A stretch of 64,000 nucleotides of DNA from Methanoregula sp. SKADARSKE-2 (GTDB lineage: Archaea > Halobacteriota > Methanomicrobia > Methanomicrobiales > Methanospirillaceae): assembly GCA_030919125.1 (NCBI GenBank), contig CP121470.1, positions 496,001 through 560,000 of the forward strand, given 5' to 3'. A program made the translations under genes and the position numbers. The notes under the pieces were generated by a model, which was given only the letters and a program-made list of their open reading frames with translations, made no database searches and was not told the origin of the DNA. Below, one piece after another: positions 54,919 to 63,063 of this stretch. How positions within the stretch are numbered: position 1 is the first letter of the stretch; each line of letters starts with the position of its first letter.

Positions 54919-55569
54919 TCACGCGGAATAATACGTAACGCGCTTCCCTTTCTTTGCATATTCCCCGGCAAAGGTCTCAATATTCCGCTTGTATCCGATA
55001 CGGTCAACAAAGCCAAGCTCGCGAAGTTTCTCTCTGATACGCATTACATCGGCCTCTTCAGCCCAGTCCCTTGTGTATACATAAATGACCTTTCGGCTGT
55101 CCCGCGAATCAGGGTTTGATTTTGCCGTGCTCACCTTCGCGGATATGCCAATCTCCCCGGCCACCGTTGCATCCCTCACCTTCTTCCATGCGCAGTCGAC
55201 AACCTCCGGTTCCTGGAAGATCAGCCACTTGCCCGCATTCTCATCTTCCGTTGCTTCCGGCAGGCTGCCGGGAGCGTCCTGAACGATCCAATAGGTCTGC
55301 AGCGTCTTTGAGGGAAGGACACCTTCCCCTTCCCTGAGCATCATGTAGATCGTATCGAGATCGGAGAAACGGCCCAGCAGGGCTTCTGCAAGCAGGGGGT
55401 AGTCTTTTGCAAACTCATCGAAGATCCGGATCAGATCGGGTTTGAAGTCACTGCCCCCCTCGACAAGGGCAAACAGGTACCTGCCGGCTGCCAGAAGACC
55501 GCGGTTAAGAAGGTGCTCGAAGATGCCGTATGCCACGTCAGCCAGCGCTTCGGGATCGACTTCAGCCAT
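54919..55569 (-). CDS. DUF1917 (BLES03-like) family protein
   Basis: 216 residues from the second ATG. Helical N-terminal part (about 1-85). The C-terminal TYWIVQD...GKWLIFQEPEVVDCAWKKVRDATVAG and VIYVYTRDW...VMRIREKLRELGF segments match DUF1917, which also occurs in eukaryotic BLES03 and has been likened to phosphothreonine lyases. The archaeal role is unknown. An ATG 9 bases earlier (55578) is possible. It is convergent with the ribosomal cluster and divergent from htpX. Confidence 0.8.
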   Translation of the reverse strand: MAEVDPEALADVAYGIFEHLLNRGLLAAGRYLFALVEGGSDFKPDLIRIFDEFAKDYPLLAEALLGRFSDLDTIYMMLREGEGVLPSKTLQTYWIVQDAPGSLPEATEDENAGKWLIFQEPEVVDCAWKKVRDATVAGEIGISAKVSTAKSNPDSRDSRKVIYVYTRDWAEEADVMRIREKLRELGFVDRIGYKRNIETFAGEYAKKGKRVTYYSA

Positions 55570-55741
55570 GGATAACACGTCTGATGTTTTCGAAATAATA
55601 GCTTTTGTATTGACTTCGGGTGGGAGGGTACCGGGTGTTCTTTTTAAAACGGAGGAATTCCCCTGAAAGTCTCACAAATACTCGCGATTATTGTAATTGT
55701 CGAATGTTTTATGAGTGCAAAATACGTAACATGTACCAACT

Positions 55742-56632
55742 ATGGAATGGAGACGCGACTGGGGACTAACGGCACGGGTACTGTTCACCGGTTTCCTGCT
55801 TTTGATCCTCTACCTTATCTTTATGACAATATTGTGGGTGTTGTTCCCCGGCGCCAGCATCTGGTTCTTTGTGATTCTGGCTGTTGGCATGGGGCTTGTT
55901 CAGTACTTCTTCTCAGACAAGATGGTGCTCTGGTCAACCGGGGCACGGATTATCGAGTCGGATGAATACCCTGACCTTCACCGGACTGTGGAAAGACTCT
56001 GTAAGGAAGCAGATCTCCCAATGCCGAGGATTGCCATGATGCAGAGTCCGGTTCCGAATGCGTTTGCAACGGGCAGAAGCCCGAAACATGCGGTAGTCGC
56101 ATGCACGGATTCGATCCTGCGCCTGCTGAACAAGGGAGAACTCGAAGCCGTCCTCGCCCATGAGCTCTCACATGTCAAGAATCGCGACATCCTGACCATG
56201 ACCATGGCAAGTTTCATCGCTATGACAGCCTCGATGATTATGCAGAGCTTTTTTTTCTCCGCTCTGTTCGGGGGCAGAGAGGACCGGGAAGGTAGCGGTT
56301 TTATCGTCGTCTGGATCGTCTCGATTATCGTGTACGCCGTTAGTACGCTCCTCATCCTTGCCCTCTCGCGGTACCGTGAGTTTGCGGCAGACCGTGGCAG
56401 CGGTTACATCACCCGAAACCCCCGGGCGCTCATCTCCGCATTGAACAAGATCAGCGGGAGGATGGATGCGGTGCCGGTTGAGGCACGAGCAAAAGTCGAG
56501 AGTGTAAACGCCTTCTTTATCATACCCGCCCTCTCGGGCAACACCATCATGGAGCTCTTCTCCACCCACCCGGCACTTGAGAAGCGGATAGCAAATCTTG
56601 AAAAAGTGGAAGCAGAACTCCGGGGATACTGA
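55742..56632 (+). CDS. htpX: HtpX-type membrane zinc protease (M48)
   Basis: 296 residues. Two N-terminal membrane segments (about 14-36 and 39-58), the zinc motif HELSH (140-144), then two more hydrophobic segments and the third ligand region REFAADRGSG. HtpX degrades damaged membrane proteins in bacteria; the archaeal form is assumed similar. Starts at ATG 55742 with an AT-rich upstream region. Single gene. Confidence 0.94.
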   Translation: MEWRRDWGLTARVLFTGFLLLILYLIFMTILWVLFPGASIWFFVILAVGMGLVQYFFSDKMVLWSTGARIIESDEYPDLHRTVERLCKEADLPMPRIAMMQSPVPNAFATGRSPKHAVVACTDSILRLLNKGELEAVLAHELSHVKNRDILTMTMASFIAMTASMIMQSFFFSALFGGREDREGSGFIVVWIVSIIVYAVSTLLILALSRYREFAADRGSGYITRNPRALISALNKISGRMDAVPVEARAKVESVNAFFIIPALSGNTIMELFSTHPALEKRIANLEKVEAELRGY

Positions 56633-58861: not shown

Positions 58862-59498
58862 ATGACTGTCAACGAACCGATCAGCAAGGTAAACCTCGAA
58901 CGGATCACCAACGCCATCTACGCTTTCACGATGACCCTGATGATCAAAAACCTCCAGACACCCGGGCCGGGGGCTATCGATACTGCGGCTTCACTTGCCC
59001 ATTATCTCACTCGCGCGTTCTATGCGGTGATTGATTTTGTCGGCGCGTTCCTTATTCTCGGCATGTTCTGGCTCTTTTATCTCCAGGTCTTTCACCGGAT
59101 GAAGACCTTCGATTTCAAATTCCTCTACATCCATCTTCTTTCGCTGATGGTCGTTGTCTTTGTCCCCTTCACGTCAAGTTTCTCCTCGAAAGGAGAGATG
59201 GCTGCCGTCGGCGATGTCTTCTTCCAGTTGAACAATCTCATCCTTGCGATCGTACTCGTCTACGGATGGCACTATTGCGCGATCCCACCCGGAACTGCTG
59301 GTGCCGGAACTTACGGGTGAGGAATCAGCGTTCCTTGGAAAGAAATTCCTTGTTCCCCTGGGGGTTGCATGCATCGGTTTAGGGTTTATCGTCACCGGAA
59401 TGGGATATGTCGATCTGCTGTACATTGTCCCTTTCATTCTCCTCGGGCTCTTCTTCCGATCACCGCCGGGCAGGAAAGCCACACCGGAAAAGACCTGA
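58862..59498 (+). pseudogene. TMEM175/DUF1211 membrane protein, frameshifted
   Basis: The first frame (58862-59320) has ERITNAIYAFTMTLMIKNL and four hydrophobic segments as in TMEM175-type potassium channels. After VYGWHYCA it runs into a short, wrong tail. Shifting one base near 59282 restores SHPELLVPELTGEESAFLGKK and two further membrane helices up to 59498. One extra base explains both halves. The N-terminal channel signature RxxxFSD is not intact even before the break, so function was uncertain already. Confidence 0.8.
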
Positions 59499-61938: not shown

Positions 61939-63063
61939 GTGTACTTCCATCTCATCCTCACAGACAACTGCAATCTCTGCTGCAGCTACTGCCGGGCAAG
62001 AGCATTCCAGAGCAGCGAGGAGAAGGGAGAGGAGGTGATCATCGAGATCGACTCTGCCCTTCCCGTTGAACTGTCTGTTGAACTGCCTGTACTCTATAAA
62101 TTCCTCAAAAGAGATCCCGCGCCGACGCTGACATTTTACGGGGGCGAACCTCTCCTCCGGGCGGATCTGATCACCACAATGGTCAGCGATGCGCCGGTGA
62201 GCCGGTTCATGATCCAGACCAACGGGCTCCTTCTCGACCGGCTCCCGCCGGAGATCGTGAACCGGTTCTCTACGATCCTCGTCTCACTCGACGGGCCTGA
62301 AGGGTTGACCGATGGAAACCGGGGACCGGGGGTTTACCGGAAGGTAATGGATAACGTCCGTCTGATCCGGTCAAACGGCTTTACCGGTGAACTCATTGCC
62401 CGTATGACCGTGACGGAGAAGGCCGATATCGTCGCCGCGGTCCGGTGGCTCTCTCAAAATCCCGATAATTCCTTCACCTCCATCCACTGGCAGCTCGATG
62501 CAGACTTTGCCGGGGATTTTTCGGGGCGCAGGTTTGAGAAATGGGCGGAGACAGAGTACAACCCGGGGATTCAGACCCTCGTCCGGGACTGGGTCGATCA
62601 TATGGAGGGGGAAAGGAAGGTACTCCGGTGGTACCCGTTCCTCGACCCGATGGAGGATCTCCTCAACGGACGGGCAAGCAGGCTCCGGTGCGGGTCCGGG
62701 TATGCCAATTACAGTATCATGACGAACGGGCATATTGCACCCTGCCCGGTGATGATCGGGATGTCGGACTATTACGTTGGTCATATTTCGGACGCAGATC
62801 CGTTACACCTCAAAACAGTTCCTATCGGAGGCGATTGCCTGGATTGCACGATCCTTGGTTTCTGCGGGGGTCGCTGCCTCTATTCAAATATCACCCATCC
62901 TTGGGAAGATCGCGAGCGAAAAATAGTGTGCATAACCGTAAAGAACCTCAATGACGCCCTGACCGGTGCTCTTCCCCGGGTACGGGAGCTTATCGCAAAG
63001 AAAAGAATTTCTCTCGAAGACTTCTCGCACGAAAAATTCAATGGGTGCGAGATTATTCCATGA
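61939..63063 (+). CDS. Radical SAM/SPASM protein, putative peptide-modifying enzyme
   Basis: 374 residues. The radical SAM cluster motif is C11-x3-C15-x2-C18 (TDNCNLCCSYCRA). FYGGEPLLR (66-74) is the SAM-contacting segment typical of SPASM-type enzymes. C-terminal cysteines C251, C269, C300, C303, C309 and C313 can bind the auxiliary clusters. The overall form resembles the archaeal AF1577-type family proposed to modify peptides. GTG start, with the usual FHLILTDNCN opening. No precursor peptide gene is recognisable in the flanks. Stand-alone gene. Confidence 0.85.
   Translation: MYFHLILTDNCNLCCSYCRARAFQSSEEKGEEVIIEIDSALPVELSVELPVLYKFLKRDPAPTLTFYGGEPLLRADLITTMVSDAPVSRFMIQTNGLLLDRLPPEIVNRFSTILVSLDGPEGLTDGNRGPGVYRKVMDNVRLIRSNGFTGELIARMTVTEKADIVAAVRWLSQNPDNSFTSIHWQLDADFAGDFSGRRFEKWAETEYNPGIQTLVRDWVDHMEGERKVLRWYPFLDPMEDLLNGRASRLRCGSGYANYSIMTNGHIAPCPVMIGMSDYYVGHISDADPLHLKTVPIGGDCLDCTILGFCGGRCLYSNITHPWEDRERKIVCITVKNLNDALTGALPRVRELIAKKRISLEDFSHEKFNGCEIIP

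Follow-up and report, generated by a model that had tools for sequence, protein, structure and literature searches.

The enzyme gene and its family

The window, meaning the whole stretch of DNA analysed, comprises 64,000 nucleotides of Methanoregula sp. SKADARSKE-2 (contig CP121470.1, positions 496,001 to 560,000, forward strand). The following features were assigned to the gene under study, in window coordinates.

61939..63063, + strand: radical SAM/SPASM enzyme of the TIGR04084 (AF0577) family; GTG start, 374 aa, open reading frame
61969..61992, + strand: CxxxCxxC motif (C11/C15/C18), ligands of the SAM-binding [4Fe-4S] cluster; invariant in 185 of 185 proteins
62140..62151, + strand: GGEP, residues 68-71, SAM-binding; three of the four residues invariant, G69 conserved in 99.5%
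62485..62493, + strand: HWQ, residues 183-185, invariant; located where a predicted barrel strand (E181-186) ends
62689..62931, + strand: SPASM region, C251 to C331, with seven cysteines for two auxiliary clusters
63049..63063, + strand: C-terminal E371-I-I-P374, followed at once by the stop codon (read directly from the sequence)

The 374-aa protein was matched by the NCBIfam profile TIGR04084 (rSAM_AF0577) at 250.4 bits (curated cut-off 225) over positions 2-347 of 347. The one other NCBIfam model above its own cut-off was that of the generic SPASM domain (TIGR04085; 34 bits, cut-off 27); the best family below cut-off was PapB (NF047865; 90 bits, cut-off 340), and the AhbC, NirJ and AhbD profiles each gave 34 bits or less. 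Pfam returned only Radical_SAM (PF04055; 42.1 bits, threshold 29.5) and Fer4_12. The radical SAM/SPASM identity proposed in the initial annotation was thus borne out by the family profile, the SPASM profile and the CxxxCxxC motif alike, and a match to a radical SAM family with a small-molecule substrate, named in the initial annotation as what would refute it, did not occur. The gene is real and encodes an ordinary member of a known, uncharacterised family; a full-text literature search for TIGR04084 found no paper. Among orthologues from 110 relatives the reading frame was intact in nearly all. One copy was split (genome G065), and one in a genome of the window's order was broken by in-frame TAG and TAA codons (G087:C28:61321-62433), so the function can be lost.

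The SPASM cysteines (C251, C269, C300, C303, C309, C313 and C331) were spaced C-x12-G-x4-C ... C-x2-C-x5-C-x3-C ... C, with G264 as the glycine, which fits the seven-cysteine SPASM pattern CX9-15GX4C ... CX2CX5CX3C ... C. Across 185 family proteins the first six were conserved at 99.5-100% and C331 at >90%. The six C-terminal cysteines counted initially were revised to these seven, plus a further, non-conserved cysteine (C370).

Structure model and nearest relatives

An AlphaFold2 model of the enzyme, computed with 59 relatives, had a mean pLDDT of 93.6. Its best PDB folds were the SPASM enzymes anSME (E 2.9e-15, TM 0.68), CteB and SuiB, and CteB was also the best profile relative (108.8 bits). 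The nearest solved folds and profiles are therefore protein or peptide modifiers. This likeness in sequence and fold is what stands of the earlier description of the enzyme as peptide-modifying; it does not establish that the substrate is a protein. MoaA, viperin and Tes, which act on small molecules, were also among the structural matches.

Two other readings of the family were weighed against these data. In one, the substrate is a cofactor, lipid or sugar, which TIGR04084 oxidises, cyclises or rearranges and to which the C-terminal carboxylate binds in the manner of QueE or MoaA. The Tes and MoaA matches favour such an activity, whereas the sequence lies nearer to maturases of the PapB, anSME and CteB type than to AhbC, AhbD, NirJ or MoaA; overall we consider it possible, at perhaps one chance in three. 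In the other, the enzyme is an ordinary RiPP maturase with a precursor peptide that lies nearby but went unrecognised, or that lies at another locus. The closest characterised relatives (PapB, CteB and SuiB) do mature RiPPs, but no RRE (PqqD-like) domain was found in the protein with Pfam, and the radical SAM core begins at residue 2. With the evidence from distribution and neighbourhood given below, this second reading is judged improbable.

Distribution and inheritance

At E<=1e-20 the enzyme was found, as a single copy, in 110 of 120 relatives; of the 89 relatives with high-quality genomes, 87 had it. Within the phylum it was present in 104 of 296 genomes, among them almost every sampled member of the window's order and numerous genomes of families f9 (probably Archaeoglobaceae, from the family's content) and f14 (Methanocellaceae by tree). 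By name, the loci belonged to Methanoregula, Methanolinea, Methanoculleus, Methanospirillum, Methanocorpusculum, Methanocella, Methanimicrococcus, Bathyarchaeota, Helarchaeota, Aenigmatarchaeota, Nanoarchaeota, Woesearchaeota, Methanofastidiosum and Theionarchaea. Of 200 Thermoproteota-type genomes, 94 had the enzyme, always as one gene (in one case in two pieces on a contig), and the S. acidocaldarius control was positive. It was scattered in Asgard archaea and found in 15 of 194 genomes (~8%) of a DPANN phylum, some of them only 0.6-0.9 Mb in size. The Haloferax, M. jannaschii and M. acetivorans controls gave no match over the cut-off, and no relatives were found in the viral contigs searched. 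The initial view of a methanogen enzyme family was accordingly too narrow: the family extends to Archaeoglobaceae-like genomes, Thermoproteota, Bathyarchaeota, Asgard archaea and DPANN. The gene at 61939-63063 is the Methanoregula-type orthologue in a family of SPASM enzymes that is pan-archaeal and single-copy, and the patchiness of its distribution indicates that the function is dispensable in many lineages.

In a tree of 99 proteins, the window's order formed one clade (44 rows, support 99), and Thermoproteota and most Bathyarchaeota each formed their own. DPANN proteins were mixed with those of Methanofastidiosum and Theionarchaea, which suggests some transfer; inheritance was otherwise mostly vertical.

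This distribution looks like that of a core gene and is unlike that of RiPP cassettes. A single-copy core gene with no protein partner would also suit an enzyme of small-molecule metabolism; against this, the enzyme occurs in some DPANN genomes of 0.6-0.9 Mb, from which most biosynthesis is probably missing.

Gene neighbourhood and candidate substrates

Neighbourhoods were compared in ~150 loci. No gene neighbour was common to different phyla, and adjacent genes were conserved only within a genus or family. No short ORF of at least 30 aa was kept beside the enzyme beyond the Methanoregula-like group. The absence of a nearby Cys-rich peptide, reported initially for this locus, was confirmed, and the puzzle of the missing precursor extends to the whole family, with no short ORF (at least 30 aa) conserved near homologues across clades. 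In Methanocorpusculum no precursor gene would fit between the enzyme and its neighbours, as the spacing on both sides is -6 to +12 nt. Because the enzyme is a single-copy core gene without a conserved neighbour across clades, a dedicated neighbouring precursor is unlikely; the 30-aa limit of the ORF comparison does leave room for shorter peptides, and to that extent for an ordinary RiPP maturase.

The two nearby proteins named as candidate substrates in the initial annotation lie where it placed them: the KDGYV protein on the opposite strand, 1.48 kb upstream, and the zinc-ribbon protein on the same strand, starting 90 nt downstream. Both were excluded as general substrates, since they adjoin the enzyme only in Methanoregula-like genomes and many carriers of the enzyme lack them. 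In 22 of 28 loci of the same genus, and in G011, G017, G033 and G048, the zinc ribbon (TIGR04272) directly followed the enzyme; in other enzyme-bearing genomes it lay elsewhere or was missing. Of 38 enzyme-bearing genomes 16 lacked it, nine of these being Thermoproteota outside Bathyarchaeota. The start of the zinc-ribbon gene is preceded by an A/T-rich, TATA-like sequence, which may allow transcription independent of the enzyme gene. The KDGYV protein was present in only eight of the 38 genomes and absent from 30. As a separate observation, tandem triplets of the TIGR04272 CxxC-x17-CxxC zinc ribbon were seen at G127:C1:582095-582607 and G145:C10:78735-79253, both in family f14.

Other neighbours were rejected as partners. 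LemA lay beside the enzyme in four loci of two phyla, was absent from 11 Thermoproteota carriers and was common in genomes without the enzyme. FtsZ, LeuRS, MtaB, HtpX and FKBP neighbours were confined to few clades, varied in distance and strand, and were judged to reflect chance or synteny. The B12-radical SAM neighbours seen in two clades belonged to different families (TIGR04013 and TIGR04190). Exporters and transporters (MFS, LysE and TauE neighbours) were scored among immediate neighbours, where polytopic membrane proteins were not enriched (9.0% vs 6.8%, p = 0.38).

The strongest local arrangement, seen in 13 Bathyarchaeota loci (L133, L143, L144, L146, L147, L148, L149, L151, L153, L154, L156, L157 and L159) and nowhere else, had genes for polyprenyl synthetase, MFS transporter and enzyme in that order on one strand. 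It favours a small-molecule substrate, which is opposed by the lack both of a conserved pathway neighbour and of transporter enrichment beside the gene.

Three further genes were recorded in the window. An M48 (HtpX-like) peptidase gene lies ~5 kb upstream of the enzyme (55742-56632, +), and an HtpX-like gene was also found 2-5 kb upstream in about ten other loci of the order. A small, single-repeat TMEM175-type potassium channel is encoded at 58862-59320 (+; PF06736, 56.5 bits), and a Bles03-like protein, of a family named from a mammalian protein, at 54919-55578 (-; PF08939, 83 bits).

An exact C-terminal tetrapeptide

All 185 distinct complete family proteins, read from their loci, ended exactly in E-[IVA]-[IVM]-P-COOH (EIIP in 156, EVIP in 24, others in five). 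E371 and P374 were invariant in all 185, and the preceding 16 columns (residues 355-370) were variable. The residues immediately ahead of the tail differed by clade (NGC or NSC, NTT, DST, FGP), so no cysteine is required there. To our knowledge this exact C-terminal tetrapeptide is new for TIGR04084, and we know of no published description of such an E-phi-phi-P motif in the family.

In two AlphaFold models most of the protein was above 90 pLDDT and the last residues were low (block means 66 and 46). A tail that is conserved yet not pre-ordered in the models would have the look of one that docks only with substrate or partner; the low pLDDT also fits docking on another protein. Conserved, catalytic C-terminal tails are known in the small-molecule radical SAM enzymes MoaA and QueE, a further point for a small-molecule substrate: the MoaA tail is reported to control catalysis (Hover and Yokoyama 2015, cited in PMC11302051), and the QueE tail hydrogen-bonds its substrate (PMC8124187).

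The tail could alternatively serve as a targeting or docking signal, for example in Fe-S cluster delivery. An exact C-terminal signal, the tripeptide of CIA clients, is described for eukaryotic Fe-S clients (PMC10623007), and the disorder of the tail in the models is compatible with such a role. A shared delivery signal should, however, recur on other Fe-S proteins, and coding sequence for EIIP plus stop occurred only 0-6 times per genome (three times in the enzyme's own genome, one of these being the enzyme itself); the eukaryotic CIA signal is, moreover, a different motif. We regard a docking signal as very unlikely. An equivalent CIA-type complex is not known to us from archaea.

Least probable, at long odds, is that the enzyme acts on its own E-phi-phi-P tail and so generates a cofactor of ribosomal origin or an active site formed by autocatalysis. 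The precursor would then be built in, as in borosin methyltransferases, which would account both for the absence of a separate gene for it and for a terminus conserved so exactly.

Proposed mechanism and significance

The family, the cysteine pattern, the distribution, the lack of a partner and the invariance of the tail are observed. For the chemistry, the role of the tail and the kind of substrate we infer the following, which we hold with about even confidence: TIGR04084, a pan-archaeal, single-copy SPASM enzyme, would stand alone and act in trans on an unlinked, widely shared substrate, with its C-terminal tail closing the active site. The CxxxCxxC cluster would cleave SAM, and the resulting 5'-deoxyadenosyl radical would take a hydrogen from the substrate. 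One of the two auxiliary [4Fe-4S] clusters, for which the seven SPASM cysteines are the ligands, would then take up an electron from the substrate radical; with seven cysteines in place of the eight of anSME, one of these clusters probably has an open iron site. The mobile tail, E-phi-phi-P with its free carboxylate, would fold over or into the active site when substrate binds and so gate the reaction.

Neither an RRE nor a leader peptide would be involved, and the substrate, common to many archaea, would come from a gene or a pathway elsewhere. As the RRE is missing, a leader-dependent peptide is not expected. A substrate that is unlinked to the gene and common to very different archaea, some with genomes below 1 Mb, is best matched by a conserved protein and next by a small molecule; a residue in a conserved protein is thus somewhat more likely.

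The enzyme probably has a shared cellular job rather than a part in making a dedicated small peptide, and its gene can be dropped from the list of candidate RiPP clusters. A single-copy radical enzyme found throughout entire archaeal orders and in several phyla points to a modification, or a step in making a cofactor, that has yet to be discovered in archaea. Interest is raised by the combination of an archaea-wide distribution, an absent partner and an exact C-terminal tetrapeptide. The invariant E-phi-phi-P offers a concrete handle on the enzyme, and since S. acidocaldarius, which is amenable to genetics, has a homologue, the substrate question can be tested directly.

Comparison with known systems

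Gms (GMGT synthase), another archaeal SPASM enzyme, was set aside as a counterpart: its six-helix N-terminal domain (PMC11186832) is missing from the enzyme.

A second SPASM enzyme in the same genome belongs to a separate family, TIGR04083 (Mhun_1560 family peptide-modifying radical SAM enzyme), which scored 59 bits with the enzyme of the window. That second enzyme (690 bits with TIGR04083) lies outside the window, ~150 nt downstream of an apparent mcrA gene (G000:C1, about 357146-359768; in locus L002, mcrA ends at 1293 and the enzyme occupies 1459-2622). Its position after mcrA suggests that methyl-coenzyme M reductase, and not a separate peptide, may be what it modifies.

MoaA (GTP 3',8-cyclase) also belongs to the radical SAM enzymes and also has an auxiliary cluster and a C-terminal tail that is conserved. 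The MoaA tail is Gly-Gly, and it is reported to gate radical initiation. Sequence similarity between MoaA and the enzyme is confined to the core (26.7 bits), and the substrate of MoaA is GTP.

CteB (SCIFF maturase, PDB 5wgg) shares with the enzyme the C-x17-C spacing of the first two SPASM cysteines. Ahead of its core CteB has ~100 residues, which we take to be its RRE-containing region and which the enzyme lacks. CteB and PapB (a ranthipeptide maturase) have cognate precursor genes, whereas none is present for the enzyme.

anSME (PDB 4k36-4k39) is likewise a SPASM enzyme without an RRE, and it modifies protein in trans. It is ~18% identical to the enzyme and has eight SPASM cysteines where TIGR04084 has seven, and the alignment ends before the E-phi-phi-P tail. 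The residue after its second aligned SPASM cysteine, D277, which we take to be its catalytic base, aligns with P270 of the enzyme, 99.5% conserved in TIGR04084, so the reaction is probably not that of anSME. The match to TIGR04084 itself is full-length, and its members have the same length, cysteines and C-terminus as the enzyme.
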